This document shows, in pieces, positions 34,151 through 62,451 of a DNA stretch of 64,000 nucleotides (the first letter of the stretch is position 1; each line of letters starts with the position of its first letter). Position numbers and translations under genes: made by a program. Origin of the DNA: Sacculina carcini. Lineage: Eukaryota; Arthropoda; Thecostraca; Sacculinidae. The notes beneath the pieces were generated by a model that searched no databases, was not told the origin of the DNA, and worked only from the letters and a program-made list of their open reading frames with translations. The stretch is from contig OU696595.1 of assembly GCA_916048095.2 (NCBI GenBank), positions 2,420,795 through 2,484,794 on the forward strand. The letters run 5' to 3'.

Positions 34151-37100
34151 ATGTCAACCTGCAATGCCTTCGATTCTTGTACTTCTAACCAGGCTGAAAT
34201 CGCCGAATTTGCCGGTTTTTCGCCGACTTCGGCAGTGTTGCCAGATTGTCATGTGCCTGTGTGTGACGTGTGTCAGCGGCGTTTCGCGGTGCGGCGCTAT
34301 CGTCCACTGCGCGCCGTTTCCGCCTCACAACAACGTCTACAGCTGCTAGCCGTCCAACAACGACTACTTCGCCTCTTTGCCAGCAAGAATGATATAGATG
34401 GCGCTCAGGTGACAGAAAATGATGTATATGGTGTTCGGGTACAAGAAAATGGTATAGATGGTATTCAGGTGTCAGAAAAAGTTGTGCATGACCTTCGGCT
34501 ACCAGAAAATGGTATAGATAGCGCTCGGGTGCCAGAAAAAGTTATGGACGACGATCGGGTGCCAGAAAATGGTATAGACAGCGCTCGGGTGCTAAAAAAT
34601 GATATAGATGGTGTGCGGGTGCCAGAAAACGGTATAGATGGTATTCAGGTGTCAGAAAAAGTTGTGCATGACGTTCGGCTGCCAGAAAATGGTATAGATA
34701 GCGCTCGGGTGCCAGAAAAAGCTATGGACGACGATCGGCTGCCAGAAAATGGTATAGATAGCGTTCGGGTGCTAAAAAATGATATAGACGTTGTGCATCT
34801 GCCAGAAAAAGTTATGGACGACGTTCGGGTGCCAGAAAATGGTGTAGACAGCGCTAAGGTGCTGGAACGTAATATATATGGTGCTCGGATGCCAGAAAAT
34901 GGCATGGATGTCGTTCAGACGGTTGTCGGTGGTCCGAGAAGTTATACGGTTGATCAAAACAGTGATCAGGTAGTATTGAGAGGTATCGATTGGCGTTCAA
35001 TTTCAGAGAGTGGTATAGGTGGCGCTTTGGTGACTGTGGATCGTGTTAACAGCACCGGACTTCCGGCCGGAGGCGCCACATCTTGTAAATTACCAACGCT
35101 TCATCCAGATACCACCGGAGCATTGAATAGTGATGTTAATAGTGATTTGTCTGTAAAGACGGGTGAAAATACGTCGCCTGGAAAGAAAGACACTCTCGGG
35201 TGTTCAAATGAAATGTGTGGTATTGAAAAAGTCGTCACTCAGCCCTTTGGGGACCTATGCAGTCCTGCCAAGGACGTATCGACTGTAAATTCACCTACCA
35301 GTGATAAAGACTCCTTGAAACCTTTCTCAAAAGCGGTAAAAAACTGGACAAACTCAGCTTGTGATCAATTGTCTACAGCTGATATTGATGTTACCGCTCG
35401 TCAGATTAATGGCAATAATCATCATGGTAGTAAAACAGGATATGAAATGCATGTTGAAGATGCTGCCACTCGTGCTTTAGAAGTGCATCAAGAAAGATAC
35501 TGCATTGCACCACAGATTTCTTGCCTGTCAGCAACTACCCTCACAGGGACTCCTTCGGGACACATGCTTCCCGTTCGGGCCGATGACTTCGGTTTGTTGG
35601 GCGGTGTTCTTCGTCAGGCGCATTTACCAGGCAGACGGAGGTCCTGGGACGCTCCAGTATCGACGGAGGTAAATCGGTGTCGGCGGCGGCTTTCGAAGAA
35701 GGGACAAAAACGTGATGAGGTTGACGAGCGTATTGCGGGAAGACGTGATTGTGATGTTATTGGTGGACGGAATGACGTAAATCTTCTGGAAACTGGATTG
35801 AGCGGGAAAGATCCGTCTGCGAGGCAGATTTCGAGTGGAGATACAACAGGCGTTAATGAGTCTACCGAGCAAGTTCGTGTTGATAATGGTCACACGTCCG
35901 GCGATGACCATATCGGGATGAAACTATCCTCCATCGCTCCGTCAACAGCCAACGCACGGGAAATCGCTTCTGGGACTATGGCGCACGTTGACACAGCTAC
36001 GTCTGTGTGTAGTATTGCGATGGTTGGCAGCAGTGGGGCTGACATCGGTATTCTGGCCACGTCGGATAATTGTTCAATCGATACGTTCAAACACCATGTC
36101 GGAGATGTGGTCAACACGATATCCGCGAAGAATACGAGTGGATGGGACATCGGCGTAATCAAGGAAGACGCAAAATATATAGCCGTGAATGGAATGTCCG
36201 CAAATGCCGAATCGGGCATGATAGTGTTAGACGGTTGTAAAAGTGGTGGAAATCGTCCGTTGAAACTCAATGGACATTTGAAAGGAGCGGATAAGTCCGA
36301 TTATTCCAAACGAGCAGCGGAGAGATCGTGTGTCAAACTAAACAAAGGCAAGGTGTCCCGCACTGCATGTGAAGCATTGAAGGCAGGTATTTTGAAACCA
36401 AAACACACTGCTTCTGAATGTAGCTCAAGGAAGATTGATAACACCACTAGGAAATCAAGTAAACTGATCCATCGCTCAAGGACTCACGTTCAGCGCCTAC
36501 AAAGCTCTGCGTGTGATGTGCTATCTGGAGGCGCTGCTCCTAAGGAAAAAACGTTGAATCTCAATAAAGGACGGAAGCGAACAGGCAAACCTGAATCTGC
36601 TTATAGGAGGGAAGTTAGCACTGCAGTGAATGGAAATGTAAACGGATGTATTGTGAGGAAGAGGAAAGGTGGTGTTCCTGTTGTGAATAATGAAGTTGAG
36701 AAACATGTTGGGAAGAAAACTACCGAGAAACGAACAGATTTATTTGATGTCATAAGATCACAAACGGAAATGTCTTCCTTCACAAAGAGAAGCAGTGGAT
36801 ATTCCGACAATAAGAGTAAGAAAATTCGGGAATCTCAATCAGCTGAAAAGCCGACACAACAAATTGATTCTGCAATTGCTATTCCAAGCGAACACGGTTC
36901 TGCGAGGAAGCAGGCAGAAGTCGAGGTAAAAAATATGATGGTTGTAGCAAGGGAGTCGTTCACTCCGGGGAATGACACTACATCGTCGGCTTGTGTGAGA
37001 AACCGGAGCAAGGAACGTTCTGCTGTTGAAGGACGAAGTGTAAGCCCTGCTGATGGGAAACAAGTGCATGGAACCGTCACGCCCATGAAACAAGTGGACA

Positions 37101-38579
37101 AATCCGTCGTACGATCATTTGACAGCAAGGGAAAGCATGGTGCACCAACAACAAACACCAAAGATAAGGAAAGTATGTCTAGTTCTACAGGAAAATCAGA
37201 AGCGATGAATTTCCCTCAAGGAATGGACGGCTCAGTTGGGAAGGGGGTTGTTGAAGCTGACTCCACATCGTGTAAAGCCAGCAATCTGGAGAGTCAATCT
37301 GAACGTCATAATAGTGGGAAATCGCCTAGTGTCATAGTCATACCCCGAAGGTGTTTACGTACTAGGAAGTCTTCAGTGACAGATGTCACTGACACGGGGA
37401 AAACCCCGACCGCTGTTTTCAACGCGAAAGCGGAAATTTCTTTACCGCCGAATATGATCAGTCCTTCCCAATCTGCTGACGTTCTCAAAGACGTCTCCAA
37501 TGCCGATAACGAGAAGTCAGTGGTGATTGGAGAAAAAGCTACAGATGATAATTCCAAGTCGAGTGGACCAACCTTTTACAGCGAGCTGTGTCGGCTTCCA
37601 GTGTCTGTGGTACGGAGTACCATCAGCAATCATCACACCGTCTCCGATCAGTCGAATACCAGTCTTCCTGCTGTGAACAGTACTCGGTGTTGTTGTGTCA
37701 ATTTGCGACGATTCAGTTTTGAAGAGTTGCATCGGCTAGCGGCTCAGTTTAATATCAGCGTGTGCCAGTCTTCCTTTCCTCCCGAATCCTCGTCCTGCTC
37801 CTCCTCGCCTGTGCCCACGGAAACAGCGGAATGTCATACGTCTACAAACGTCAGTGTCACTGGACCACTCATTGATCCGCAGCTGAATATCGAAGCCAGA
37901 TCTGAGCCAACCATGGATAAACACCTGCCGACTCGCAGAAAGCGCAGGCGAAGGGTCGCTGATTGTTTTTCGGTGGTGAGAAAGCGGCGGCGGCGACCTG
38001 TTTCCCGCTCATCAATCGGCCAATCAAGGACGACTTTGACTACTGCCAGTCAACCTGTGGCGGCATCGGCGGAATCTGCCAACCAATCAGAGGCGACAAC
38101 GAATACAATCCTCAGCCAATCAGAGACAATAACGAAGACAACCAGCCAATCAGAGGCGGCGGCGAATACAATCCTCAGCCAATCGGAGGTAGCGAAGGCA
38201 ACTGTCAGCCAATCAGAGGTGGCAGCGAAGACAAGTCAGATCAAACGAGCCAGAACGTGTCAATCGCACGAGCCAATAAGGAAAACCAAGAGCCAATCAG
38301 AGTCAACCGGAAACAAGTCTAGCCAATCAAAGACTAAGGAAATTACCAGCCAATCAGAGCCAGTGGCGACTATCAACAGCCGATTAGAGTCAACGATGAA
38401 GACTGAGAGCCAATCAGAGACAACCGAGAAAATTTCTAGGCAATCCCAGGTGGCGACAGGTGAAATTTCCAGCCAATCAGCGGTCGTTTTATCAAGTTAC
38501 GTCAGCGGTGACACTGAAGACGAACAAGAAACGAGTAGTGAAGATGAAGACTATGAAGATTGTTTCTCCAAAGAGGACG
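34151..38579 (+). CDS. Large exon of an unrecognised repeat-rich protein (candidate multi-exon gene)
   Basis: About 1476 codons stay open; I do not recognise the protein. Start: MSTCNAFDSCTSNQAEIAEF, then a Cys pair in CHVPVCDVCQRRFAVRRYRP (about residues 34-55). Residues about 79-255 are tandem 10-residue repeats (PENGIDSARV, PEKVMDDDRV, LKNDIDGVRV). The middle is Ser/Thr/Lys-rich and probably disordered, with basic KRRRR-like clusters near 1260-1290 that could act as nuclear localisation signals. The end (about 1310-1450) is a SQSE-rich repeat, then an acidic segment SSEDEDYEDCFSKED. The frame reaches a stop at 38617, but a consensus donor GTGAGT starts at 38580 and the next exon (38796) continues in phase, so splicing is likely. 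No signal peptide or membrane segment is seen. A single-exon protein ending at 38617 is the alternative. Confidence 0.72.
34384..34920 (+). repeat. 30-bp tandem coding repeat
   Basis: About 18 imperfect copies of a 30-bp unit such as GTGCCAGAAAATGGTATAGA, each encoding ten residues in two alternating types (PENGIDSARV and PEKVMDDDRV). The reading frame is kept throughout, so copy-number change would not break the protein. Confidence 0.9.
38083..38480 (+). repeat. CCAATCAG-containing coding repeat array
   Basis: CCAATCAG or a one-base variant begins at 38083, 38116, 38146, 38179, 38209, 38273, 38293, 38323, 38350, 38380, 38410 and 38473, mostly 30 or 33 bp apart. In the reading frame the repeats encode SQSE. 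At DNA level CCAAT followed by CAG is the classical NF-Y binding core. A second cluster of the motif lies at 43489-43558. Confidence 0.85.
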
Positions 38580-38795
38580 GTGAGTGTTTTTATGATCGAT
38601 CGGTTAGCGACATGTGAGCTCGTATGCGTACATTTTGCCCATAATCCATATCATGTGTGTGTGTGGGTAGGTGTGTGTGTTTGTGTGTTCGTAGTTCATA
38701 GTTTGTGTGTGTGTGTGTGTGTGTGTTTGTGTCTGTCACTATGTGCTTGTGTGTCGCTTTCCATATGTCAGTGTCTGTGTGTGTGTGTTTGTCAG

Positions 38796-38959
38796 GCAAG
38801 CCAGTAATAACTGTACTGCCTCCCGTGTTACACGCTAGCAACAAGACGCGCTCTGTTGAGTTGTCCACTCGCTGGGGCAGTGTGTGTGTCTCGGTCACGC
38901 CCAAACTAAACTGCAAATTGACCAACACGCACCGCCCACTGTCTAAGACTGTCCGGTCA
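38796..38959 (+). CDS. Candidate exon 2 of the large gene
   Basis: A 3' splice site GTGTGTGTGTTTGTCAG ends at 38795. Taking one base from exon 1 (phase 1) gives an open frame: GKPVITVLPPVLHASNKTRS, then VELSTRWGSVCVSVTP and KLNCKLTNTHRPLSKTVRS. The exon ends at the consensus donor GTGAGT (38960) with complete codons (phase 0). Composition looks coding rather than repeat-like, and the two splice sites plus phase match are independent of each other. No homology is recognised. Confidence 0.6.
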
Positions 38960-39215
38960 GTGAGTTTATTGCCAATTGACTCACAAATCAGTCACAAACA
39001 CACTCATCCACATACACATTACATTAGATTAGGTGAATATTTACATAGCGGCTTACACCTAGAGCAGTGGTTCTCAACCTTTTTCAAATCAGCAGTCGGT
39101 TCTCGCACTCCTTGCATTCTTAATATCCATATTAAAAGGATAAAAATGTTTTATTCAACTTGTATTCACACAGCTTCAGGTTTCCTTTAAGGAAAAATGT
39201 ATATATATATATATA

Positions 39216-40535
39216 CAGGGTGCGGCACAGAAACTTGCTGATTTGTATCGGTCGCCTTGTGGCGAGGAATGGTGGGGTATGGGCGAGTCCATTTTCATTG
39301 GAGAGGGGAAGCCCTGACGTTTTGTTTCTATCCTCATCAGTCACCATCATGCATTGGTCGAAGCAGGAGCGAGCGTTTGCGTGCGAGGCTTACTTTTCCA
39401 ACGGTCGCTCCATTATCGCCACTCAACGTGCCTTCCGTACTCGGTTCAATATTCATCGCGCGCGTCCCGTGCCTGGCCGGCAATCAATTGTGTCGTGGGT
39501 GAACACATTCAGGCTGAGTGGAAGTGTGGCAAAACCGGGTCAGGAGGTCATCAGACAGCCAGAACTCCAGAAAATGTTGAAAAGGTGAGAGAGTCATTCC
39601 TCCGATCTCCTCGGCGCTCGGCGCGGAAACATGCAGCTGCTCTGGGAATGTCTGACCGCACCGTGAGACGAATTCTTCACCAAGATCTTAATTTTCATCC
39701 CTACAAAATGGCTGTGGCGCAGCAGCTGGGTGAACGCGATTTTGATGCCCGCCGAAATGCATGTGAAGCGCTCCGTGAAAACTTACCTCACGACGCGCTG
39801 GTGTTCTTTAGTGATGAAGCTCACTTTCACATTTCTGGCTGTGTGAACAAGCAAAACATGCGTTATTGGAGCGCTAACAATCCACATGAACTTCATCAGA
39901 GACCACTCCATTGTGAACGTGTCACTGTGTGGTGTGCACTTTCAAGAATAGGGATAATTGGTCCTTACTTTTTCGAAGAAAATGGAGGCACTGTTACGGT
40001 GAATGCAGCTCGCTACAGGGAGATGATTGCAACCTTTTTTCTCCCAAGCCTCCAGCAAATGGACATTGGTAATGTGTGGTTCCAACAAGATGGAGCCACA
40101 GCACACACAGCGCGAGGGTCAATGAAACTTTTGAGGGAGCATTTCCCTGAGCGTCTCATATCCTTGATAGGTGATCTTCTGTGGCCTGCGCGCTCGCCTG
40201 ATTTGGCTCCATGTTATTTTTTTTTGTGGGACTACCTGAAATCCATCGTTTATGCTGATCGCCCACAGACCCTGCTTCATCTAAAGGACAACATTCGCCA
40301 AGCCATCACCGACATACCCGTCGATATGCTCGAAAGAGTGGAAGGAAACTTCAAGAATCGGGTAGCTCAGTGCATTGACAATGGAGGCAATCACTTGGCC
40401 GATGTCATCTTTAAAACAGTTTAATAAATAAATTCAGAGAATGTAAGATGAGATGTGAAATGAATTATAACAAAATCACAACTATTTTGGTTTTTATTAA
40501 CCTTTCAAATCAGCAAGTTTCTGTGCCGCACCCTG
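39216..40535 (+). mobile_element. Near-intact mariner-like transposon
   Basis: Terminal repeats of about 29 bp start with CAGGGTGCGGCACAGAAACT and are almost perfect inverted copies (39216-39244 and 40507-40535). TA flanks both ends (39214-39215, 40536-40537). It encodes one transposase with a single frameshift. It inserted in a TA tract inside an older hAT-like MITE. The near-identity of the ends and nearly intact coding sequence mark it as one of the youngest insertions in the window. Confidence 0.92.
39349..40424 (+). pseudogene. Mariner-family transposase with one frameshift
   Basis: Begins at the ATG 39349 (MHWSKQERAFACEAYFSNG) with a helix-turn-helix N-terminus. A frameshift near 39535-39555 moves the protein into the next frame, which runs to a stop at 40424: GGHQTARTPENVEKVRESFL, then ALGMSDRTVRRILHQDLNFH (second helix-turn-helix). 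The catalytic core FFSDEAHFHISG, VWFQQDGATAHTA and WPARSPDLAPCYFFLWDYLK supplies three aspartates. By my count 36 residues separate the last two. Transposases of this group cut and paste the element at TA. Apart from the frameshift no stop is seen. Confidence 0.88.
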
Positions 40536-40763
40536 TATATATACAAACACTATATTTGGTTCAAAATTACATTTGTTTGGCAGGAATCCTCGCACCCCTT
40601 AGGAACGTAAAGCGTAAAATCGTCTATGTTAAGCGTAAAACCGGACGGAAAACTATGAACTTTTGAATGCAAAACCGCAATTGGAACGTACAGCGTGTAT
40701 TGCTCGGCTAACTATCTCCTTCTGACATCCACTTCTGGTTAAAGGTTAAGGTCAAAATGCCTA

Positions 40764-41080
40764 AGTGGCAGCTGCTACACGGGAAGAAGTCGAAGCTTAT
40801 GAACACACAGGCGTGCCCCGTGCAGCTCGCTGCCACCGCAGAACCGACCTTCTCCACGCTATGGCGCCACAAGGACGTAAGACGTATTAGAGAGGGCCAC
40901 CTCCCCAGAATGCATGGCACAACTCATGACTGATATCTGGTACCATCATTTTCTGCTGGGTGGACAGAGGCTGTGGGATTGTAGAATTCGCCCAATGAAA
41001 TTCTGCCCCGCCGGGTTTCGAACCACGGACCTTCCCCTTGTGAGGCGGGTGTGCTAACAACTGCACCACGGTCCACTATG
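40764..41080 (-). mobile_element. tRNA-derived SINE, copy b
   Basis: Homologous to the SINE at 28735-29050 over its full length. The head (41076-41008, minus) reads GTGGTGCAGTTGTTAGCACA, an anticodon loop CTCACAA (CAC) and B-box GTGGTTCGAAACCC. The anticodon stem is degraded (CCCGC against GGGGA), so it is clearly not a functional tRNA. Confidence 0.8.
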
Positions 41081-41089
41081 TGATGCTAC

Positions 41090-42289: not shown

Positions 42290-43009
42290 TACTAGTCACG
42301 CATATAATTGTTTGTTTACTTAGTTATTGTTAAGTTACTTGGATAATATCTCAGAAACTTAGTCAATTGGTTTAATGACTCAGATGCATGCCTAGTTACT
42401 TATTTATGCATAGTGTTGTTTTTTAGTTACTCGGATGGTTAATCGATTAATTGCTTACTCAGATTATTGATCTTTTGTTACTCAGATGGTGGATTGGTTA
42501 GTTCCTCAGATGATTGATTGGTTAGTTACTCATATGATTGATTGGTTAGTTACTCAGATGATTAATTGGGTAGTTACTGAGATGATTGACTGGCTAGTTA
42601 CTCATATGATTGATTGGTTATTTACTCAGATGATTGATTGGTTAGTTACTCAGATGGGGGTTTGGTTAGTTAATCAGATGATTTATTGGTTAGTTACTTA
42701 TATGATTGATTGGTTAGTTACTCAGATGATTGATTGGTTAGTTACTCAGATGGGGGATTGGTTAGTTACTCAAATGATTGATTAGTTAGTTACTTATATG
42801 ATTGATTGGTTAGTTACTCAGATGATTAATGGGTAGTTACTGAGATGATTGACTGGCTAGTTACTCATATGATTGATTGTTTAGTTACTCATATGATTGA
42901 TTGGTTAGTCACTCGGACGATTGATCGGGTCGTCACTGAGATGATTGATTGGTTAATTATTTACTGAGAGTATTGATTATTAGTTACTCAGATGATTGAT
43001 TGGTTAGTT
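42290..43009. repeat. 24-bp satellite (TTAGTTACTCAGATGATTGA-type unit)
   Basis: About 28 copies of a 24-bp unit, TTAGTTACTCAGATGATTGA followed by TTGG, with variants GGGGGTTTGG and ATATGATTG. The array is most regular from 42480 to 42960. Because 24 is divisible by three, one frame stays open (MIDWLVTQ repeated), but this is a by-product of the repeat. Confidence 0.92.
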
Positions 43010-43345: not shown

Positions 43346-43429
43346 GGCTACTCACACAGATAGTTGATTGCTTGTGAATCTATAGGAAAAAGCTTGGCTT
43401 CAGCGAGTTTCATCATTGGCTGGAGCCGG

Positions 43430-43485
43430 TGCGGTTGCGTGACGTCATCAAGTACGTGTGCGTCTGGCCCCGCCCACTTCTGCAG
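43430..43485 (+). promoter_or_regulatory. CRE plus GC-box cluster (alternative promoter) or polypyrimidine tract
   Basis: TGACGTCA (43439-43446) is a perfect CRE, CCCCGCCCAC (43469-43478) a GC/Sp1-like box, and CCAAT motifs follow at 43490, 43521 and 43553. This is a strong vertebrate-style promoter grammar. The same bases CCCGCCCACTTCTGCAG also make a good 3' splice site for candidate exon 3. Both readings are possible; sequence alone does not decide. Confidence 0.4.
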
Positions 43486-43588
43486 GCGACCAATCAGCAG
43501 ACGGTGATTCATTTGTCAGCCAATAATCGTTCGACAAGCCACGACGGTGCAGCCAATCGCCGCTCGGTTGCCATGGAAACTCAAGCAG
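43486..43588 (+). CDS. Candidate exon 3 of the large gene
   Basis: A C/T-rich 3' splice site ends CTTCTGCAG at 43485 and a consensus donor GTGAGT starts at 43589. In phase 0 (as required by exon 2) the exon encodes ATNQQTVIHLSANNRSTSHD and GAANRRSVAMETQA, leaving one base (phase 1). A Kozak-like ATG (GCCATGG, 43573) sits inside, so this could instead be a first coding exon driven by the CRE/CCAAT cluster. Confidence 0.45.
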
Positions 43589-44224: not shown

Positions 44225-44571
44225 GATGTTTATTGTAAGCATTGTGTATTGTAAGTGTTAGGTTTAAATCACCTAGAAAATATTTACACAATACGTATTT
44301 GTTATTGCAGATTTTATATATCTTATATATTGTTCCTTTTAATTTTGTCATATTTTATAGTGGCTAATTGATGTAATAATTATAGTGTATTGATTGTTTC
44401 CGCTAAACGGAAATGATGACACCATTTTAAACCAATTTTCATGTTAGCATGTTATATATCTTCATTTGTTTCAAATAATAAATTATTTATTCCTGAATTG
44501 TGAACTAAATTGTGATTTATCTACTGATAAATTTGTTTCAAATTTCATTTATTTTTTGGAATGCTTGACAG

Positions 44572-44636
44572 AAGATGGCCTCATTTGCAAGCAGAAATCT
44601 ACTCGTGACGTCACAAACTCCAGTCAGCTGACTAAT
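44572..44636 (+). CDS. Candidate exon 4 of the large gene
   Basis: The 3' splice site ATTTATTTTTTGGAATGCTTGACAG is described by its end at 44571, and a donor GTGAGT starts at 44637. Joined to the single base from exon 3 it encodes EDGLICKQKSTRDVTNSSQL and TN with no stop (phase 1 in, phase 0 out). The other two frames are also short, so openness alone is weak evidence. The support is the pair of consensus splice sites plus phase. Confidence 0.42.
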
Positions 44637-44989: not shown

Positions 44990-46290
44990 GTCTTATTTTT
45001 CAATATAATATCTGCACAATGTGGTCTAACTATGAATAAGGGTGTGACCTTCCTGGACGACCTAGGCTTCGATGTCGATGAGGTTGAGGCTTACATTCTT
45101 CTAAGTTGAGGTTGACATTGGAGGTTCTCGAAGACTTTCAATCGAGGAGATGATTATAAAGTATCACAGCCATCACGACCTGAAGAGCTTATTCGAGGTA
45201 AACACATTCGATTCAATATGGTCCTTGTGCGCCTCCGACGGCTACATCTACGCTTCATTTCTGTATCAGGACAAGGAGTAGGGTCGCTCAGCACGGATCC
45301 CAATGGGTTATCGAGTAGTTCTCAGCCCCATATCCTGTGTCGACATCGCTAACTGGAAGGAGCTCTATTTCGAAAAATTGTTCACCTCTCCATCACTTCT
45401 CGTCTCGCTGACCAAAATGAGATTCAGTGCGTTAGGAACCATCCGTGCCAATTGAACCAAGAAGGCTCAGTTCAAGTCGGACAAGGATATTAAGGCTTTG
45501 GACTCTTGAGCAGAAATGCAACCATAAGAACCAGATTAAGTTTGTCAAGTGGAACGACAGCAGTTTCGTTCACATGGCGGCGAACTACTCCAAGGTACGC
45601 CCCATAGTGAAGGCGCTGCGGTACAGCCGCACCGAGAAGAAAGTGAAGGTCGGCAAATATGCTGTCCTAGGTACGTTTGATACTGCTTCAGTCCCGGGTC
45701 TCTTTTTGTTTATGTTAGGTTTAGTTGGGAAGAGAGCGGGACTGAAGCAGGACCAAATATACCTGGGGTGCATATATCCTTATCCAAATGTCAAATAGCT
45801 CCGTGGAGGTTGACATGTTCCGCGTCATCTCCAAGTACAACAGTAACATGGATTCGTGGACCACCATGATTTGATGGTGGCGCACGTTGTGATTGGGATC
45901 GGAGAGAAAATGCTACTTCTATCCTCTGACGGGCGCGATCCAGATGAGCCTGGTGAACGCCTGATAGCGCTGCCTGGTGGTGCACACAATAAGTTGGTGG
46001 AAAAGCCGGAACAGATTTCGGTCCTTGACTTCACGCGCGAGGTGGCGCTCTCATATATGAAGATCATCAATGGCAAGGACTCAATAATTTAACGAGCCCG
46101 GATCGCTTCTCGTGTTGGAATGATAGCGCGTCCTCCGCTAGACTCCCGCTTCAACGTCGTCGGACATATTCGCCTCGTGCGTGAACAGCAACGGTGATGT
46201 CAGGGACCCGGTTGCAAGTCAATCCCGTTGTCCTAATACGGAAAGTGTGCAAACACCACGCTGTGCAGGCAGTGCTTCAATCCCTATCAT
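44990..46290 (+). pseudogene. piggyBac-type transposase pseudogene
   Basis: Across several frames it encodes IWSLCASDGYIYASFLYQD (the KLW.LC...GY motif), GYRVVLS, ELYFEKLFTSPSLLVSL (FDNFFTS..LL), ALGTIRAN (GT.R.NR), IKFVKWNDSSFVHMAANYSK (KW.D...V.LLS) and SSVEVDMFRVISKYNSNMD (corresponding to GGVDL.D). A Cys-rich tail near 46220-46290 (CANTTLCRQCFNPYH) matches the C-terminal zinc-binding domain. This is the DDE domain order of piggyBac transposases. At least six stops or frameshifts exist and the GGVDLMD aspartate context is altered, so it is dead. No TTAA-flanked ends were found. Host genes derived from piggyBac exist, but decay argues against that here. Confidence 0.7.
45683..45750. repeat. 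14-bp perfect inverted repeat within piggyBac pseudogene
   Basis: CTGCTTCAGTCCCG (45683-45696) and its exact reverse complement (45737-45750) flank a 40-bp loop. The pair lies in about 110 bp of extra sequence that separates two adjoining blocks of the transposase, so it may be a tiny insertion. Confidence 0.8.
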
Positions 46291-46389
46291 ACGACATAAT
46301 TACCGACTGACAGCTCGAAAAAGTCAATTTCATGTTCCGATACGGACCATCTGGACTTGGATTGCAACTATTGTATATACTCAAAGATT

Positions 46390-46574
46390 GTAGCGGTACC
46401 AGGATTTTTCCGATAGGGGACTGAGGGGGGCTAATAAAAAGGTGCGCAGGTTGGGGAAACATGAAGAACTATTCTTGAAATGTTCATGGTCAGGATTTTC
46501 GGTGTACTCGAAGGGAGTTTGGCACAGATTGGGGAATTTCAGCCCCTCCAAGTCCTCCTTTGGCACCGCCGCTG
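46390..46574. mobile_element. Family F non-autonomous element, second copy
   Basis: Left end TAGCGGTACCAGGATTTTTC and right end CTTTGGCACCGCCGCTG are diverged forms of the CAGTGGCGGCGCCA repeats of the copy at 2666-3145. The interior shares CCGATAGGGGACTGAGGGG and AAATGTTCATGGTCAGGATT. At 185 bp it lacks the nested element of the first copy. Confidence 0.6.
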
Positions 46575-47008
46575 CTCGAAAGTATTGAAAAAACCGACAG
46601 TAACGCATATTTCCATTATTAGACTGGTTCTTCTTTTATATTTTTTATATATTTCGTACGATGAACCTATTTCCTCTAAAATGGAGTTGGTACTATTATG
46701 AGCGTTCTCCGGCAGTGATCTATTTATAGATCAGTGAATGTAAATCGCTCCTATACATAATTACTAATGATCAGAGTATTGAAATTTGTTGTGAAGGAGC
46801 ATTGATTTTGTTGTGTTGTTTTGTATGAGACAATAAATAAATTATTAAAACAATTTGTTTTTTCTACTCAAGGTCGTGTCTATACTATGGGTCAACAGAG
46901 AGAACCACCGAAAATATGGTAAAAATGGTCTACTTCAATGCTCTATCAGAAGTTGAAAAACTAAAGTAATGATTAAAAATAAAATACTAAAAGTAAAAGG
47001 TCCAAATG

Positions 47009-48130: not shown

Positions 48131-49479
48131 CCCTAACTACTATACTTAACTTATAAATTGCACTAACTATAACTATTATATCATTGAATTTTTTTGTGAA
48201 GCAGTATGAGGCTATAAATAAATTATTAAAGTCATTTTCTAATCGGGGTCGTGTGTCTACCCTGAGGATATACAAAGAGAACGACCGAAAAAGGTTAAAA
48301 ATTGTCTACTTCAATGCTCTATTAGGATAAGTTAAAACTTTAAAGTTATGATTTAAAATAAAATACCATAAGTACAAAGTCCAAATATTATAACAAATGA
48401 AGTATATTCATTATATCAGAAAACAATTATGACAAAAAAGTAGCTGAAATCGGTGATATCTATCTATATAAAAGAGATCCTCTGTCTGTGTGTCTGTCTG
48501 TCTGTTTGTCTGTCCCACCCTCCTTGGTCCATTTTCAGCAAGCTGCTACTCGGTAACCACTTGGTGTACCCGCCAACAATTTATACCATTACGTTGGAAA
48601 TTTTCTTGTCTACACGATAGGATAAATTTTAAATTTTAAAAATAAAACCAAAAAAAGTTATCGCGGTGAAAAGACAAAATGAACCCTGAAAAATGCGAAA
48701 ATCTTGGTCAATATTCCTGCATCTACTCCTCATAAACCAGAAATGGTACAGCTAAACAGATTATACCACTGTGTAGAGAATATTCTGTTCTACTCGGTAG
48801 GCTATAATTCATATTCAAAAATTAAATATAAAATATGTAAAAATGACAAAATTTCAGTCTACATTCAAAATTATATTTAAGCTCGACGCGTCCCATTTTC
48901 TGTACTTTTTTCTCTATTTCTCAGCAACTAACTATGACACATCTAAATAAATATTACCATCATGCTGGGAATTTTGTTTTCTACAGCGCGGTATAATTTT
49001 TAATTTTCCAAAGTGTTTGAAAAAAAATGTTACGGCGGTGTGAAGTCAAAATGACAAAGTCAAAAAGGCAAAATTAGCACTAAAAACGCGAATATTTTGG
49101 TCAATATTCCCCTATCTATTCCTCATAAACCAGCAGAGTTACAGCTATAAAAATTATACTATTGTGTAGAGAATTTTGTGTTCTACAAGAAATATTCTAA
49201 TTTATACCCACAAATGATACCAAAAACGTAAAATTGGCAAAATTATCAAATACATCCAAAATTACACTTGAACACCGGGCGACTAAAATTAATTCATTTT
49301 TCTACTATTTCTCAGTAACTATTTGTTACACATAAAAATAAATTATACCATTGTGCTGGAAATTTTGTTTTCTACAATACGGTATAATTTGTAATTTTCC
49401 AAAGTATATCTGAAGTAAGTTACGGCGGTGTAAAGTCAAAAGGACATATTGCCAATTTGACAGCTATTATGCGCACTTG

Positions 49480-51203
49480 CGATTACACAGGAATATACTA
49501 CTGTGTAGATAATTTTGTGTTCTACAAGATAAGCTATAATTTATACCCACAAATGATACAAAAAACGTGTAAAATTGGCAAAATTCTCAAATACATCCAA
49601 AATTACACTTGAACAACGGGCGACTAAATTTTTCCCATTTTTTTACTATTTCTCAGTGACTATTTGTTACACATAAAAATAAATTATACCATCGTGCTAG
49701 AAATTTTGTTTTCTACAATACGGTATAATTTGTAATTTTCCAAAGTGTATCTGAAGGAAGTTACGACGGTGTAAAGTCAAAATGTCATGTTGCCAATTTG
49801 ACAGCTATTATGCGCACTTGCGATTACACATGAATATACACTGATTTAATTTCACTGAAGTCCAATCACAATTTACGCACTTGCGATTACACAGAAATAT
49901 ACTACTGTGTAGAGAATTTTGTGTTCTACAATATAAGCTATAATTTATACCCACAAATGGTACAAAAAACGTGTAAAATTGGCAAAATTCTCAAATACAT
50001 CCAAAATTACACTTGAACACCGGGCGACTAAAATTAATTGATTTTTCTACTATTTCTCAGTAACTATTTGTTATACATAAAAATAAATTATACCATCGTG
50101 CTAGAAATTTTGTTTTCTACAATACGGTATAATTTGTAATTTTCCAAAGTGTATCTGAAGGAAGTTACGGCGGTGTAAAGTCAAAAGGACATATTGCCAA
50201 TTTGACAGCTATTATGCGCACTATTATCTATCTATCTATTATCTATCTATTATCTATCTATTATCATCGTGCAAGAAATTTAGTTTTCTACAATACGGTA
50301 TAATTTGTAATTTTCCAAAGTGTATCTGAAGGAAGTTACGACGGTGTAAAGTCAAAATGTCATGTTGCCAATTTGACAGCTATTATGCGCACTTGCGATT
50401 ATACATGAATATACACTGATTTAATTTCACTGAAGTCCAATCACAATTTACGCACTTGCGATTACACAGAAATATACTACTGTGTAGAGAATTTTGTGTT
50501 CTACAAGGTAAGCTATAATTTATACCAACAAATGATACAAAAAACGTGTAAAATTGGCAAAATTCTCAAATACATCCCAAATTACACTTGAACACCAGGT
50601 GACTAAAATTAATTCATTTTTCTTCTATTTCTCAGTAACTATTTGTTGCACATAAAAATAAATTATACCATCGTGCTAGAAATCTTGTTTTCTACAATAC
50701 GGTATAAATGTTAATTTTCCAAAGTGTATCTGAAGGAAGTTACGGCGGTGTAAACTCAAAAGCACATATTACCAATTTGACAGCTATTATGCGCACTTGC
50801 GATTATACATGAATATACACTGATTTAATTTCACTAAAGTCCAATCACAATTTACGCACTTGCGATTACACAGAAATATACTACTGTGTAGAGAATTTTG
50901 TGTTCTACAAGGTAAGCTATAATTTATACCAACAAATGATACAAAAAACGTGTAAAATTGGCAAAATTCTCAAATACATCCCAAATTACACTTGAACACC
51001 AGGTGACTAAAATTAATTCATTTTTCTTCTATTTCTCAGTAACTATTTGTTGCACATAAAAATAAATTATACCATCGTGCTAGAAATCTTGTTTTCTACA
51101 ATACGGTATAAATGTTAATTTTCCAAAGTGTATCTGAAGGAAGTTACGGCGGTGTAAACTCAAAAGCACATATTACCAATTTGACAGCTATTATGCGCAC
51201 TTG
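49480..51203. repeat. About 404-bp tandem repeat array within H2
   Basis: Units contain TTTGACAGCTATTATGCGCA, ATATACTACTGTGTAGA and TTACGGCGGTGTAAA in fixed order. 50397-50800 and 50801-51203 are nearly identical, 49822-50222 is close, and 49480-49821 and 50263-50396 are partial. A (TTATCTATC)n microsatellite at 50222-50262 marks a break between units. The homologous part of H1 (17830-18300) is essentially unamplified. Confidence 0.88.
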
Positions 51204-52629
51204 CGATTACACAGGAATATACACCGATTAAATTTCACTGAAGCCCAATCACAATTCAGAATGCATCATATTATCTCCAAGCATGGATGGTGTGGTTTTA
51301 TTGCTTACAGTTTAATTAATGCTACACTATACTGAATATAAAGGCTTTATTGTCCTCAATAACGTTCCGCACGACGGGCGGGTAAAATGCTACTGTGAAC
51401 AAAGTAAACTACTGAATTTAACTGTGTAATTTAATTGGTTTAATTTCAAGTTGCATAAGGATATGGGTTGCAATATCATGTAATGCTAACTTATGCTGTT
51501 TTAGCGGAAGCATTAACCTGGAATTATAGAGATGACAGAAAGTTGCATTGTTTTGACAGTGTTACACTTCTGAGTTACTGCACACGAAGGATGGGTGTGA
51601 ATTTGAGCAGTGTTGAGGGAAAAAAATTCGTCAAAAATTAAAACAAGAACTTACACATTTATATTTTTATATTGGATAAGCTTTTTGATTTTTGTTTCAT
51701 TATATTTTATTAATAGTTCCGCACGACGGGCGGGTTTAAATACGAGGTTGTTCGAGGAAAGATATTTTGCCACATCTAACATAAACACATTCATATTTAG
51801 ACTTTTCTATTGGTTAAGACTTTTTATGGGCTTGCTTTTTTAATTTTTTAATTTGTATTAGTAATTTTATTAACTCAATATTTATTTTACTTTTTGTTCT
51901 AATTGTTCCGCTATACGGGATGGTTTCAATGCTAGATGATATTAATTTATAAATATACTTTGGAAACATTATGATAGAAAATTTAGACAATTTTCATTTT
52001 TCGTGTGTGAATTTTTAATTATTCCGCACGACGGGCAGGTTTAAATATGAAGCGGGTTGAGGGATAATATTGTCAAAATTAAAATAAAAACATCCATATT
52101 TGGACTTTACTATTAGTTAGCATATTTACAGCTTTAATTTGTTTGCTTTTTAATTTGTATTCATTTTCGTTTATGGATTGAATATGAATAGATTTTATGA
52201 ATTGTTCCGCACGACGGGCGACTTTAAATTTATATATATATATATATATATATATAATGAATTATCTGTGTGTGTGTATGCTTGGATACGAGGTGACATA
52301 ACTGAGCGGGTTCAATGATATAGATCAGGGGTTTTAAACGTAAACGAAACGATGGATCATTTTTATGAAATAAAAATGTCCCGCGGGTAGCAACTATAGA
52401 CAATAGAACGTTCAATTTCACCGTGTATAATGAATTCATATACAAAACTAACTTTGTTGACTTCAAGATCCAGAACAAATCGTGTTCGAGTTCTGAATTA
52501 TCCCGCACGACGGGTGGGTTTAAATATGAAGCGGTATGAGGGAAAATTTTTGTCAAAATTAAACTGAAAATCATTAAATTTACACTTTTCAATTGATATC
52601 CTTTGTTTTATTAATTGTTTTTGCACGAC

Positions 52630-54538: not shown

Positions 54539-54540
54539 TA

Positions 54541-55535: not shown

Positions 55536-55543
55536 TACTAGGT

Positions 55544-55933
55544 ATTTAGCAGTACTCTACAATAAGCCCACACAAAATTCGAACTTTTCTCCGGTAGGAT
55601 TTTTCAAATGCTGTTTTACATATGCAATATTTTGAGCAAAAAATCGTTATTTCCTATAATTTACGTGTTTCATTGCACATATTTCTACTTTATCAACATT
55701 GATATTATTCATACCAAAATGATAATGATATTCATACCAACATTGATATAATTAATACCAAAATAAGCTTGTGGCTAAATCAAATTTTGGCAGACTGAAT
55801 TTTTTACCTTGTGAAATAGCTCTGATTAAGCCCGTCATGGAGATTAGATTTTAGGAGATTTTTGGACTAAAAATATGGGCTTAATGGCCGGGATCTACGG
55901 TATACAAATAGTGTACGTGTTTTTGTGTGTCAG
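55544..55933. other. No supported feature (intron-like)
   Basis: A/T-rich sequence with a small direct repeat (ATTGATAT..CATACCAAAAT, 55700-55765). It ends in a TG-rich tract that leads into the candidate splice site at 55933. Confidence 0.4.
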
Positions 55934-55994
55934 GATTCTAAGATGAATTGTGATTCAGTTCCAATAGCTGACACACCAAACCAGCACAATTCAG
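55934..55994 (+). CDS. Candidate exon 5 of the large gene
   Basis: The 3' splice site GTGTTTTTGTGTGTCAG ends at 55933 and the donor GTACGT starts at 55995. In the phase 0 required by exon 4 it encodes DSKMNCDSVPIADTPNQHNS with one base left over (phase 1). The exon lies in the short unique stretch between the Tigger and the hAT composite. Confidence 0.42.
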
Positions 55995-58226
55995 GTACGT
56001 ATACACACACAATTGAAATGAGTAGAGTTGGGATTGTTTGTATGTGATAATTTTAGGCGTTTTATGTTTTCATTATGTGACGAAAAATGCAAAATATGTT
56101 GTCGAAATCACCAAAATATGTTATTCAACTATATAATACGTGAGTTTTGGACTTTCGTAGATTATTTGCTTCAAGAGGCAAATTTTCCGTAGTACATGGC
56201 GAAAGTTTTACCTTGATTGGGCCCTCCGGATAGGATAAGGGTGCAGTAGCGGCGCCAGGATTTCCCGGTAAGGGGCTAAGGAAAAATATGCGGGATTTGG
56301 CGAAACACTAGGAAGTACCATCGAAATGTTAATGGTGAGGATTTTGAGAGTGTGCTCAGAAGGGCTTGACAAATTTCGAGAGGGGGAGCTTCAACCCCTC
56401 TTGGTGCGGTCACCGCAGTGGTGCCACTTTGGAATTTTGCTTCGAGGCGCAATGATCCTATTATTCGATTCTGCATGTACATTTAATATTTTTCGAGTGA
56501 GTAGCCGGTTTGTTTTGTTGCTCGAACTGCGACTGATGACCAACGCACACGTTTTTCTCAACATACTGTGAGGTCACTTCTCACACTCTTCAAAAAAAAC
56601 CTGGCATAATGCAAACAATGTATTTTCCGGACTAAAATGAAAAATCGAATCGAGCAACATTTGCAAAACAAGCAACAAGTAGCGCTTCCTAAATGACACT
56701 GCCCCGCACTCGCATATACGAGGCGAGCATCATGAATATTGCAACAACGAGACGAGCATCATGAATCAATATTGCAACAGCGCGCCGCGCAATTTTGCAA
56801 GTGTTGAGCCCTCATAGGCCAGCACAGCGCGCGGCAGCACAACAAGAGACGAACACACACACACACGCATAAAATACACACAAACAAACGATTACAAAGC
56901 CGTGCACAAGTCACCATAGGCTAGCACAGGGCGATCAGATGTGTGCACAAACCGCCATAGGCGTGCACAAGCCGCAACACATACAACGCAAAATATGCTC
57001 TTCTTGTCAGACACGTTTTTTGGGAAATTCAACTTCACATTAAATTCCCTTAATTCCTTTGATCGTGATAATACAGACGTCATTTGTGTTGAATAATTTG
57101 CCTAAATGTAGATTCGAAGTACATGTATGATCCTACCTTTCCAGAAAAGCTAATGGTACGTGTACCTAGCTTTGAGTGATTCGGTGTACATAGCGAGTTA
57201 TAACTAGGGCTGCCAAAAAAGTAACCTAAAATCAGAAAAAGTAACTTTTTTCGAGAAAAAGTAACCTAAAAATAACCTATGAGTTTTAATGTTATCACTT
57301 TTGTGTCGCTTTATCACATGTTTATCACCCCTTTGCTGATTAGTGCGCTATATGAAATACACGGTTTGTTTTTGAACATAAAAAGTAACTTAAAAATAAC
57401 CTAACCTTCGTAAAAATAACCTTCAAAAAAGGTCTGTTTCTGTTTGCAGGTCTGAAGGAAGAAAATACACCAGTCCTTCTTTTTTATCCTCTTTCCGAGT
57501 TGGTACTATTTTTCCACCCTCTCTTCGATCGGGTACCATTTGTACAACAAACCACCAAAAGTGACATAATATTATTGGGCTAACATCACAAAAGGGAGCA
57601 TAACCATCAAAATGCAATTTAAAGTGGAAAGCGAATACAAAAGTGAAATACACTAATTGAAAATGTAAATATTTTTTATGGTCGCAATAATGTTCTTTAT
57701 ACTGTTTCAACGGAACTTTTTATCAAATAGCACGTAGTACAGCTTGTATATTAGTGTGAGCGTAAACACTGCATGTGTAAATGCCCCCGTCCTCCCATAT
57801 GTAGCACCCTGTGATCACAGTCTTATAAATGTCAAACGTGGGAAAATGGCGCTATCTCGCGCCCTGAAAATCACGTGCTAATTCCTGTTCAAGTAAATGC
57901 GTACTGTCAAGTGCTACAGTGCAGTATCTGATATAGAGAGCTCACACATCGTACTATACCACGCTCCAAACATCTCACGACACCCTCCGGGTCGTGGACA
58001 TTTCCTAAAATGGAATGACGCTATCCTGCGTTCCCAAAAACGTATAAATATCGAGTAGCACATATATTAAGGTGAATATCAATTGCTAAATCCCTGCAGC
58101 AGAAATTTTGACATTTCTTCAGACCTAATATCCCATCTCTTTTCATATTTCATCCTGATTTATACCGTTTTTGTGCCTCTTATTTGCAAAAAGTCACCAA
58201 ACGTCGTGGTTAACTTACCTAATAAC

Positions 58227-59508
58227 TAGGGTGACCTTTTGGTGCGCTTAAAATAAAGAAAAGGTGCGCTAAAAAGTTGCACTTAAAATTTTGTTGGAAC
58301 TTCACTAAAACCTATAAAAGACTAGTGAAAATTATATAATTATGAAAAACATACTTGTGAGAAAAGGTTGTACTTTTTACATTCCATAAATATTACCACA
58401 ATACGTTTTGATCATTCGCGGTTGTGCTAAGATTGCATGCTTCATGATCTTCAACTGTCACCTCACTGGCGACAAGGGTGACATTTGGATGCGCTAAAAC
58501 TTCAAATAGTTGCGCTAATAAGTTGAGCTCAATGTTTTGCTAAAATATTACCAATTTTAAATAATAGGGTAATACAATTTTAACACTGAAATCACTCCTT
58601 AACATTACAATTTGAGACTTTCACGTTTTTGTTTTGTTTTGTTTGGATGTCTGGTAGTGACATTTAAATATGCAATATAATTTGACAGACTCGCTCGATG
58701 TTAATTTCCTTGCATGTTACAAGGTCTAAATGGATTTTGCAGATAAAACATAATCTGATTATGAGGTAATTATAGTCAAGTGCTTTTGATCTAACTAGTT
58801 GCTCTAAGGTTGCTCGAAAAGTATACAAATTAAGGTTGAATTTTATTGCACAAATGCACCTGTCTATATCATAGTGTTATGTGTATATTATATTGTATAT
58901 GTCTATATTGTCTATGGGAACGTACATACGCAGGATGGACAACTTTACAACCGAATTTTTTTCCTGATAATGTGAAACAATTGTTCTAAAAGTTCGAGAG
59001 TTGTCCTAAATCAAAATAATTGTATTTAAAAATGAAAAAGTTGCAAAAATTGCGCTAAAACAAAAAGTTGCATTTATAACTTCTTTAATATGTACCTCAT
59101 ATTAGGCCTGGGCAGGAACCGGTTCTGACGGTTCTGCTACGTGGGTATTGGAACCAGGTCCGAGACTCGGAACCGGTTCTGGAACCGGGTCCACACGGAT
59201 CCGAGTCCACACGGTTCCGATTCTCGGACCCGGGTCCACACGGATCCGAGTCCACACGGTTCCGATTCTCGGATCCGAGTCCACACGGTTCCGATTCTCG
59301 GACCCGGGTCCACACGGATCTTAGTATCAGGACTGACAGGAAAATGTATGCGCCTTGCGCACACACTACATGAACACTACGGTGCGTTTTAGAATTAACG
59401 CTATTTCATTGATATGAGGCTCATATCAATAAAATATTGATTTTCGGGCTTCTCAGAATGAACAGAGTATAGATGAAAAAGTTGCATTTGCAACAAAAGG
59501 TCACCCTA
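58227..59508. mobile_element. hAT-like element E nested in copy C
   Basis: Ends TAGGGTGACCTTTTGGTGCG and, inverted, TAGGGTGACCTTTTGTTGCA. Flanks CTAATAAC (58219-58226) and CTGATAAC (59509-59516) agree at 7 of 8. The homologous copy D has an intact CTAATAATAAG there, with no insertion. Subterminal GCGCTAAAA motifs repeat at both ends. A further AGGGTGACATTTGGATGCGC near 58478 suggests that a related end is duplicated inside. Confidence 0.88.
59188..59322. repeat. G/C-rich minisatellite
   Basis: About three and a half units of GGGTCCACACGGATCCGAGT plus CCACACGGTTCCGATTCTCG, roughly 45 bp each, preceded by AGGCCTGGGCAGGAACCGG. It lies within element E and contrasts sharply with the A/T-rich surroundings. 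Confidence 0.9.
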
Positions 59509-59933
59509 CTGATAACAAGAAAAATTACAAAAAGGTAACCTGACGATAAAAAAGTAACCTGAAAGCAAAAAAGTAACCTAACGATGAAAAAGTAACTTTT
59601 GGTAACCTAATAACTTTTCAAATAATTATCGTACACAACTTTTGCATGCAGTTTTAGGTAGCTTAAGCAAGTGACCTTTAGGTAGAAAAGTAACTTTATT
59701 AACTTTTGGCAACCCTAGTTATAACAGATCCCGTTGCCACGCTATCACACCACTTAATTCCCCCATAACCCATATGGTAGGGGGTAGGGGTATAAACCGC
59801 GTGACGCTTTTTATGCCCGGACTTGGGCAGTTATCATCATCGCTGCTATGTTTTCATTATTAACATTGCTGGTGTTAATATTATACATATATGCAGTGTT
59901 TGAGTGTATTCATCACGTTTCACAGCACGTAAC

Positions 59934-60770
59934 TAGGGCTGTGAAAAGTTAATAAAGTTACTTTTGCAACTAAAGGTCACTTTTTCATAAGCTACCTAAA
60001 ACTGCATGGAAAAGTTGTGTAGGATAATTATTTAAAAAGTTATCAGGTTACCAAAGGTTACTTTTTCATCGTAAGGTTACTTTTCTTGCTTTTAGGTTAC
60101 TTTTTATCTTCGGGCTACCTTTTATTTTTCTTATTATTAGATCACTTTACCACGGAGTTTGGTAACTTAAAGGCACAGATAAGAGGCACAAAAACGGTAT
60201 AAATGAGGATAAAATAGAAATAGATGGAGTATGAAGTCTGAAGATCAAGAAATGTCCAAATTTCTGCTGTTAGGATTTAGCAATTAATCTTCACCTTAAT
60301 GTCTGTGCTACTCGATATTTTTACGTTTTTGGGTGCACAGTAGTGTCGTTCCGTTTTAGCAAATGTCCACGAACTGGAGGGTGTCGTGAGATGTTTGGAG
60401 CGTGGGACGTGTGAGCTCTCTATACCAGTCAATGTACTGTAGTACTTGACAGTATGCATTTACTTGGACAGGAAGTAGCATGTAATTTTCAGGGCGTGAG
60501 AGTGCCACTTTCCCACGTTTAAGCTCAAGCGACGAAACAGTGCCCCTTATCATAAGACTGTGAGTACAGGGTGCTTACATGAGGATGGGGGCATTCACAC
60601 ATGCAGTGTTTACGCTCACACAAATGCACGAGCTGTAGCACGTGCTTGTGGCGTTTAGGTAGCCACGGAACGGCAGAAATTCACAATGTGAGTGCTTTGG
60701 ACCGACTGTATTTGACACAAGATGACGAAATCAGCAGGTCACACATGCAGCATACAAACATACAATTGGT

Positions 60771-60812
<42 letters not shown>

Positions 60813-61304
60813 ATCTAACAACACACGCAGTGACACAGACAAACACGACACACATGCATACAAATCAATAGGCGTGCAGCTAGACTCGACGAGGTGGTGC
60901 GCGGCGTAATTGCACGTGGTGCACCACATGCTTATTTGATAGGGTTGCCTCAAAAAAGTCTCATTGAAACAATATATGGAACATTATTGCGACCATTACT
61001 AAAAATAATTACGTTATCAAGTAGCGTATTTCACCTTTGTATTAGCTATCCACTATTTAATTACATTTTGATGGTTATGCCCTTTTTGCGATGTTAGCCA
61101 AATTATGTTAAGTCACTTTTGGTGGATTGGTGTAAAAATGGTAATAAGTCGGAGAGAGAGTATAAAAATGGCACCAAATCGGACATAGGATAGAAAAGAG
61201 GTACTGGTGTGTTTTCTGCCGTAAAACTGCAAAAAGAAATTAACCTTTTTTGAGAGATCTTATGTTATTTTTCTGATTTTTAGCTTACTTTTTTGACAAC
61301 TCTT
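59934..61304. mobile_element. hAT-like transposon, family C, inverted copy D
   Basis: TAGGGCTGTGAAAAG at 59934, with a right end near TTTTTTGACAACTCT (61291-61304). Its full length is the reverse complement of copy C without element E: for example AGTGTTTACGCTCACAC/GTGTGAGCGTAAACACT and CGACACCCTCC/GGAGGGTGTCG. The target duplication is decayed (CACGTAAC against ATCATAAC). It carries its own insertion at 60647-60925. Confidence 0.8.
60647..60925. mobile_element. 279-bp insertion in copy D, with palindromic ends
   Basis: Compared with copy C, copy D has extra sequence flanked by ACGTGCT (60640-60646) and ACATGCT (60926-60932). It begins TGTGGCGTTTAGGTAGCCAC (self-complementary GTGGC/GCCAC) and ends with the GTGGTGCGCGGCGTAATTGC block, whose relatives are at 2280-2390 and 2589-2620. 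It contains (AC)n at 60774-60811. Probably a SINE or small DNA element of an undescribed type. Confidence 0.6.
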
Positions 61305-61499
61305 ATCATAACCTATTGAATGCGTTATCTGTGTAATAACAATTATTAAAAGAATATATTAACACCAGGCGCAACCTATAAAATTATATATTTGCAAAAT
61401 ATTTCTCAGTGAAAATGAGGTTTTATGTTTTTTTCGCTTAAAACCGACATTTTATGTGAAAAAAATGTAGTTGATCACAAAGTTCCTAACTCCAGCAAT

Positions 61500-61800
61500 C
61501 AGTGTACATTTATAATTTGTGAAACTTGTGAACTTGCGAAATAACATTTTTTAAGCCAATTAGCACTGGGTAAATGCGTTTGCCTTTTTTGTTAAAATAC
61601 GCTTTTGCAAAGCACTATAATACAGAGAAAAAAAGAAAATATAAAATATTGATAAAATAAATATATATTATATTCTCGAAGGTATTGTATACAAAATATT
61701 TGATTTAATTATACTAAGATTAAATAATGCAACAATACATAATGTAATGTAATGCATTGATTGGTGAAACTGTGGGTCACATATAAACACCATCTTCATT
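61500..61800. other. No supported feature
   Basis: A/T-rich intron-like sequence following the hAT composite. No reading frame or terminal repeat is recognised. Confidence 0.4.
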
Positions 61801-61804
61801 CCAT

Positions 61805-61910
61805 TATTATTGTAATTAATTAGAGGTAAGTCCAGTAGCATGAGAAGAGTGCAAGCAGTATTACTACCCTGTGGGGTGGCCCTATGTATTGGAAGCGCCC
61901 AAAGTTAACA
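61805..61910 (+). mobile_element. Orphan LINE/SINE 3' tail, third copy
   Basis: CATTATTATTGTAATTAATT, TCCAGTAGCATGAGAAGAGT, a stem-loop ACCCTGTGGGGTGG and GGAAGCGCCCAAAG match the tails at 19800-19905 (inverted) and 29398-29505. Confidence 0.62.
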
Positions 61911-62045
61911 AATGTGCTAAATGTAACAAGGTTATAAGTAAGTTATAAGTAAAGTTAAGTGTATTTGACTGTTTTTGTTGTTAATGTTTCAGTTATTGTT
62001 TTTCAATAATATTAATTATATTTGTGTGTGTGTGTGTGTGTGCAG

Positions 62046-62078
62046 CATTGCTTGGTACCAACAAGACACTTTCACTTA
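62046..62078 (+). CDS. Candidate micro-exon 6 of the large gene
   Basis: A (TG)n tract ending GTGTGTGTGTGTGCAG (62045) precedes 33 bp, and the donor GTGAGT starts at 62079. With the base from exon 5 it encodes ALLGTNKTLSL and leaves one base (phase 1). The consensus sites and phase are right, but the small size makes chance plausible. Confidence 0.3.
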
Positions 62079-62233
62079 GTGAGTCTGACAGCGAATAATA
62101 CATGTGTGAATATTACATCGTGGTGTAAACGCTCACACTCCCTGATGGTGTAAAATGGTGAAGGTGCCGTATGGTCTGGCTTATTACACCTTAACATTCA
62201 CACAAACACACATTGTTTTGTTCATAAGTGCAG

Positions 62234-62451
62234 ATGATGTGTGTGTGTGTGTTACTCTGCCGAATTTTCCAAATTTGTCTGCAATTTTTGAGCTTGTGTG
62301 TTTCATTTTATTTGCGTTCGATGTTCTGGTGAATACATTGTTCATGTATGTGTATGTATTAGTACCAAACACAAACAAGCACTATTATCAGATGATTTTA
62401 TCAGAGAGTACACATCGAAATTTAAGCAAGCATGAAAACAGTGCGCAATGA
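62234..62451 (+). CDS. Candidate terminal exon 7
   Basis: TTGTTCATAAGTGCAG ends at 62233. In phase 1 the frame reads NDVCVCVTLPNFPNLSAIFE and LVCFILFAFDVLVNTLFMYV, then HRNLSKHENSAQ and a stop at 62449-62451. The hydrophobic middle could be a membrane segment, or it could simply reflect T-rich DNA. This is the weakest exon of the model. Confidence 0.22.

Follow-up and report, generated by a model that had tools for sequence, protein, structure and literature searches.

The question raised by the stretch of Sacculina carcini DNA analysed here (64,000 nucleotides of contig OU696595.1, assembly GCA_916048095.2, hereafter the window) is whether a series of short open segments scattered among repeats between positions 34151 and 62451 belongs to a single gene of 28 kb. 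An initial annotation, made from the letters alone, had chained six exons, and possibly a seventh, by splice phase into a candidate gene of this kind. This chain is right at best in part: two of its junctions appear misplaced, and its third exon is better read as a control region. For exons 1 and 2 (gene A), there is good support for a real gene that is present in one copy and belongs to no known family. The reading tentatively favoured here, to which slightly less than an even chance is given, is that two units had been joined, namely gene A and an internal promoter (promoter B) with the first exon of transcript B. The features of gene A are the following.

34151-38579, forward strand: exon 1 of gene A, a giant coding exon; 1476 codons and a single further base, open frame, single copy, donor score 8.6
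34388-34927, forward strand: decapeptide repeat in exon 1, with a 30-base unit present 18 times
38083-38477, forward strand: SQ-rich repeats in exon 1, also a row of CCAAT at steps of mostly 27-33 bases
38796-38955, forward strand: exon 2, its donor shifted to 38955 from the 38959 of the initial annotation; acceptor 16.3, donor 7.7, single copy

The borders listed in the initial annotation were borne out by the letters: the ATG at 34151, the end of exon 1 at 38579, CAG preceding exons 2-7, GTGAGT directly 3' of exons 1, 2, 3, 4 and 6 and GTACGT directly 3' of exon 5. The running phases (1, 0, 1, 0, 1, 1) were reproduced as well, the sole stop being the last codon of exon 7. Splice signals on both sides had been claimed for every exon; donors do stand on exons 1-6, whereas exon 7 is terminated by a stop and has no donor. 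The genome searched comprises 264.4 Mb in 43 contigs, whose numbering apparently follows size; among them we infer 37 of chromosome size from the step between contig C37 (6.4 Mb) and contig C38 (155 kb). In a similarity search that skips very common words, exons 2, 3, 4 and 6 matched themselves alone, and exon 5 gave one additional match, confined to the flank from 56008 on. Exon 1 gave 17 other matches (best E 3.7e-11; 32 of 80 candidates scored), all of them on residues 70-313, that is, on the decapeptide repeat. A repeat taken as control (45000-47008) yielded 39 further copies of more than 1.2 kb with 79-83% identity (40 scored of 1589 candidates). Hence the description of exons 1-6 as lying in small unique islands between repeats holds, since the exons are single-copy while the control is multicopy.

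Splice sites were scored with a model trained on the genome's own TCP-1/Cpn60 (CCT) genes, for which 53 family matches were found. Among 32 candidate junctions between neighbouring exons, five were without sequence and 27, in loci L030-L059, were fitted, 23 of them with a posterior above 0.9; the CCT reference scores used below are somewhat inflated, because the same 27 introns trained the model. In 24 of the 27 donors G precedes GT. Where a pyrimidine tract would be expected, the CCT 3' splice sites are UG-rich: the T+G fraction at positions -20 to -3 is 0.76, against 0.49 for C+T, exceeds C+T in 23 of 27 acceptors and goes down to 0.58 at -170 to -120. The starting acceptor model favoured pyrimidines, yet the fit gave the UG-rich tract. 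At the acceptors of the window, T+G amounts to 1.00 for exons 2 and 6, 0.88 for exon 5, 0.76 for exon 4 and 0.65 or 0.41 for the two candidate acceptors of exon 3; the UG-rich tract is thus present at exons 2, 5 and 6, less marked at exon 4 and absent from exon 3. If general, UG-rich 3' splice sites would differ, in a way open to testing, from the pyrimidine tract found in most genomes. A literature search on such acceptors listed two papers, both concerned with CELF-type splicing factors; no claim is made that they are unpublished.

The frame around exon 1 is open from 34079 to 38617, which at 1512 codons is far above chance length. The donor of exon 1 equals or beats 22 of the 27 CCT donors, and the acceptor of exon 2 equals or beats 25 of the 27 CCT acceptors. 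It is this long frame, its occurrence in one copy and these two strong sites that make the case for exons 1 and 2. Exon 1 is perhaps not the first exon of gene A, as a candidate acceptor upstream of it, at 34105 (score 7.2), makes an earlier exon possible. The end originally given to exon 2 was moved: the donor at 38959 scores 1.9, with one of the 27 CCT donors as low, versus 7.7 at 38955, with 16 of the 27 as low. The latter is also compatible in phase with an exon 3 starting at 43386; against it, the best masked three-exon and six-exon chains described below end exon 2 at 38893. Folding of 38560-38980 gave a z score of -1.52, and seven of 100 shuffled sequences folded equally well.

Beyond exon 2, the proposed 28-kb chain did not clearly exceed chance in simulations and decoys. 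Under loose acceptor rules the real sequence gave a phase chain of 6, which was reached by 9 of 60 dinucleotide-simulated sequences; under stricter rules the chain was 2, reached by 18 of 60, and under the strictest it was 0, a setting with no test power. Frames of the length of exons 2, 3, 4 and 5 were open by chance in 876, 1359, 2073 and 1685 of 5000 simulations, respectively. Phase-chaining across repeats is thus little evidence for a gene.

The splice model was also used to search for the best chain following exon 1. In the unmasked search, 38796-38955 was kept in all best chains of two or more exons and 55934-55994 in those of four or more, and the chains were otherwise filled with exons lying mostly inside repeats. 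The two-exon chain (score 38.3) stood above all 18 decoy runs, some of which overlap each other (best decoy 35.8). At 1, 3, 4, 5 and 6 exons, decoys exceeded the real chain in 4, 1, 3, 3 and 2 of the 18 runs. After manual masking of repeats, the five-exon optimum (83.0) consisted of 38796-38955, 43386-43588, 44262-44359, 55934-55994 and 62234-62451, versus 79.1 for the chain with corrected borders. The chain of the initial annotation including exon 7 scored 84.7, versus 95.0 for the best masked six-exon chain. By these searches, exons 2 and 5 were recovered without guidance and exons 4 and 6 were not.

The island at 43.4-43.6 kb, which had been taken for exon 3, is the segment to which the proposed promoter B is assigned.

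43440-43580, no strand assigned: promoter-like cluster with TGACGTCA at 43440, CCCCGCCC at 43468, CCAAT at 43490, 43520 and 43553, and an X-box at 43567-43580; single copy
43386-43588, forward strand: longer alternative of exon 3, should the island be an internal exon; weak acceptor (4.2), frame open in the 1359 simulations mentioned above
43573-43588, forward strand: proposed 3' part of the first exon of transcript B, from its start codon (ATG) on; donor 10.5

Both candidate acceptors of exon 3 are weak (4.2 at 43386, 3.9 at 43486; one of the 27 CCT acceptors is as low). Its donor is the best of the chain and equals or beats all 27 CCT donors. The island also holds the strongest 150-base motif cluster in the window, scoring 13 versus 6 for the runner-up with motif weights picked after the cluster had been seen. 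Taken together, the weak acceptors, the superior donor and the motif cluster argue for promoter B. We take TGACGTCA and CCCCGCCC to be a cyclic AMP response element (CRE)-type site and a GC box; the only second copy of TGACGTCA in the window, at 44606, falls within exon 4. The ATG at 43573 is in a frame running through exons 4, 5 and 6 to the TAA ending at 62099, and GCCATGG is a favourable context for a start codon. A 24-base minisatellite of about 23 copies (42455-43009), many of them with ATTGG (CCAAT on the opposite strand), lies 0.4 kb upstream of the island.

The X-box reads GTTGCCATGGAAAC, a perfect RFX-type site, and is the only one in 239 kb of sequence examined. Genome-wide, the pattern GTTGCCATGGMAAC was found 221 times on the forward and 195 times on the reverse strand (palindromic sites being counted on both), whereas its reversed control turned up once on each; the X-box is thus about 200-fold commoner than the control, and it is a real, selected motif class in this genome. 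Among 100 listed sites, 21 read GTTGCCATGGAAAC, and 12 of these were sampled. Their flanks have CA/TG repeats alone in common, so the sampled X-boxes are not copies of one element; a GC box was present at 3 of the 12 versus 0.23 of random pieces. Some of the palindromic sites among those listed stand in pairs 2-4 kb apart.

Downstream of the island, the following segments were considered.

44572-44636, forward strand: exon 4, possible; acceptor 6.7 (four of 27 CCT acceptors as low), donor 4.6 (three of 27), single copy
55934-55994, forward strand: exon 5, likely; acceptor 12.1 and donor 9.5, both good, picked by the unmasked and masked searches
62046-62099, forward strand: exon 6 as last exon, possible; acceptor 7.5, ends at TAA by translation, single copy, ATTAAA at 62504
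62234-62451, forward strand: exon 7, possible alternative last exon joined straight to exon 5; acceptor 10.5

The splice scores of exon 4 and the acceptor of exon 6 are in the lower CCT range, and neither exon appears in the best masked chains; the codon score of exon 4 is on the coding side. The donor by which exon 6 had been continued into exon 7, at 62078, scores 1.3, with one of the 27 CCT donors as low, and this junction was dropped. Exon 7 is the best last exon of the masked three-, four- and five-exon chains and of one six-exon chain. The supposed intron 4 contains a satellite-like tandem repeat with a unit of about 404 bases (48740-51256).

In the two-unit reading, gene A would be read from the forward strand, its giant exon 34151-38579 would be joined to 38796-38955 across a GT-rich intron of 216 bases, and its protein would carry an SQ cluster of the type phosphorylated by ATM/ATR-type kinases. 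Promoter B (43.44-43.58 kb), which would comprise the CRE-type site, the GC box, the three CCAAT boxes and the X-box, is predicted to recruit CREB/ATF-, NF-Y- and RFX-type factors. Transcript B would have a first exon ending at 43588, probably with translation starting at ATG 43573, and this exon would be joined to small exons, most likely 55934-55994 and possibly 44572-44636 and 62046-62099. Should gene A also be spliced into the exons of B, then the whole would be one gene, with B as an alternative promoter inside it. Transcription at the locus, the start site, factor binding and protein function are all predictions made from sequence.

Several observations weigh against this reading. The phase of the island fits donor 38955, which would allow an internal exon, and the masked five-exon optimum contains 43386-43588. 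In addition, the island frame is coding-like under a codon model built on eIF5B, only 0.005 of open intronic pieces scoring as high (0.218 with a model from exon 1, 0.062 with both). Exon 1 itself, unlike eIF5B in codon usage, scores near zero with the eIF5B-trained model, so this model cannot judge the short exons; for exon 3 its score nonetheless falls on the coding side. At the 12 sampled X-boxes, CCAAT on either strand was found in three cases versus 0.45 of random pieces and the CRE half-site in three versus 0.42, and no general partnership of X-box and CCAAT was seen at these sites. The inflation of the CCT reference scores counts on the same side. A single 28-kb gene with corrected borders (34151-38579, 38796-38955, 43386-43588, 44572-44636, 55934-55994 and 62046-62099, ending at TAA), in which the motif cluster would be a coincidence or a second use of exon 3, has several points in its favour: every phase fits, the frame reaches a natural stop, the islands are single-copy, the masked five-exon search joins 38955 to 43386-43588, and the codon scores of exons 3 and 4 are on the coding side. 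It is nevertheless considered doubtful, given that simulated sequences attain the same phase chain in 9 of 60 cases, that chance frames are common for exons 2-5, that the acceptor of exon 3 is weak and that the corrected chain scores below the best five-exon chain.

A further reading, considered unlikely, accepts exon 1, with or without exon 2, and regards the other small exons as chance segments of intergenic DNA. Decoy chains as high as the real one at 1, 3, 4, 5 and 6 exons and the lower-range splice scores of exons 4 and 6 speak for such an explanation; yet exon 5 has two good sites and was selected by both chain searches, the islands are single-copy between repeats, and the motif cluster of exon 3 would be left needing some explanation. 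The richness of the neighbourhood in repeats might suggest a mobile element, with exon 1 as its coding region. The probability of this is very nearly negligible, as exon 1 is single-copy outside the decapeptide repeat, yielded no Pfam mobile-element domain at E up to 1, and gave six peptide patterns of which none is present in viral contigs; no further copy sharing its ends was found in this genome. A combined possibility is regarded as distinctly improbable: the island would serve as a coding exon of the 28-kb gene and also as an RFX/NF-Y/CREB-type promoter from which a short internal transcript starts, and the spliceosome of this genome would recognise a UG-rich 3' tract instead of a pyrimidine tract.

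The protein of gene A is long and probably disordered, and it looks nuclear. The product of exon 1 contains 12.7% serine and has clusters of basic residues at positions 1262 and 1277 and an acidic end. S/TQ motifs reach a maximum density of 9 per 100 residues, which was matched by none of 1000 shuffles (windows taken at every fifth start only). A nuclear location and regulation by kinases would be consistent with these features. SQS codons read AGCCAATCA in 8 of 12 cases, and therefore the SQ-rich repeats also form the row of CCAAT listed above. In the decapeptide repeat, the nonsynonymous substitution rate (dN) was about equal to the synonymous rate (dS) in all three comparisons of 180-base units.

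That the encoded protein was not recognised in the initial annotation agrees with the database searches, in which no family was found for exons 1-2 in Pfam or PDB beyond repeat-driven matches. In Pfam, exon 1, its N-terminus, the exon 2 frame, exon 3 and the joined C-terminus were all without a family above the cut-off, the best sub-threshold matches being DnaA_N (E 0.011) and PMT2_N (E 0.012). The joined C-terminus had no match in PDB, and exon 1 matched four eIF3A chains (best E 6.4e-7) over the decapeptide repeat only. No kinase or repair domain was found. A Tantalus/PRR14L-like identity, suspected from the giant-exon layout, was dropped, as no Pfam match was obtained.

Elsewhere in the window, 3407-6952 on the reverse strand encodes a full-length eIF5B of 1182 amino acids, with matches in Pfam and PDB, in a single uninterrupted frame; the CCT genes of this genome are many-introned, and the window eIF5B may be either a retrocopy or an intronless gene. 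Three tRNA-like stretches were noticed at 41003-41075 (reverse strand), 28980-29034 (reverse strand) and about 33640-33712, two reaching the Rfam threshold and the third recognised by eye. ARAGORN called no tRNA at these stretches, which are probably short interspersed nuclear elements derived from tRNA. Contig starts in loci L014, L015, L018, L020, L024 and L025 carry telomere-like arrays with an 11- to 12-base unit containing TTAGG (e.g. ACACTTAGGTA).

From a methodological point of view, a splice model trained on conserved genes of the same genome led to one junction being shifted and a second being discarded, and drew attention to a promoter-like island. As regards known systems, gene A resembles orphan genes in having no Pfam family above the cut-off, PDB matches to eIF3A alone over a repeat, and low-complexity repeats; it would be an ordinary orphan, long, repeat-bearing and without known relatives. 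SQ/TQ cluster domain (SCD) proteins are defined, in an excerpt of PMC4705472, by at least three S/TQ in 100 residues, and the exon 1 product, with up to 9, falls within this definition. In contrast to SCD proteins, the cluster of gene A is a tandem SQSE-type repeat and is accompanied by neither a kinase nor a repair domain; because of its tandem nature, it may have arisen by repeat growth. Concerning promoter B, an excerpt of PMC11344851 states that members of the RFX family bind GTTGCCA-TGGCAAC and that RFX5/RFX7 sites are often near CCAAT boxes. The other X-boxes of the genome differ from such RFX/NF-Y promoters in being mostly without CCAAT (three of the 12 sampled have one), whereas the island, a candidate promoter, resembles them in that its palindromic-type X-box adjoins CCAAT boxes.

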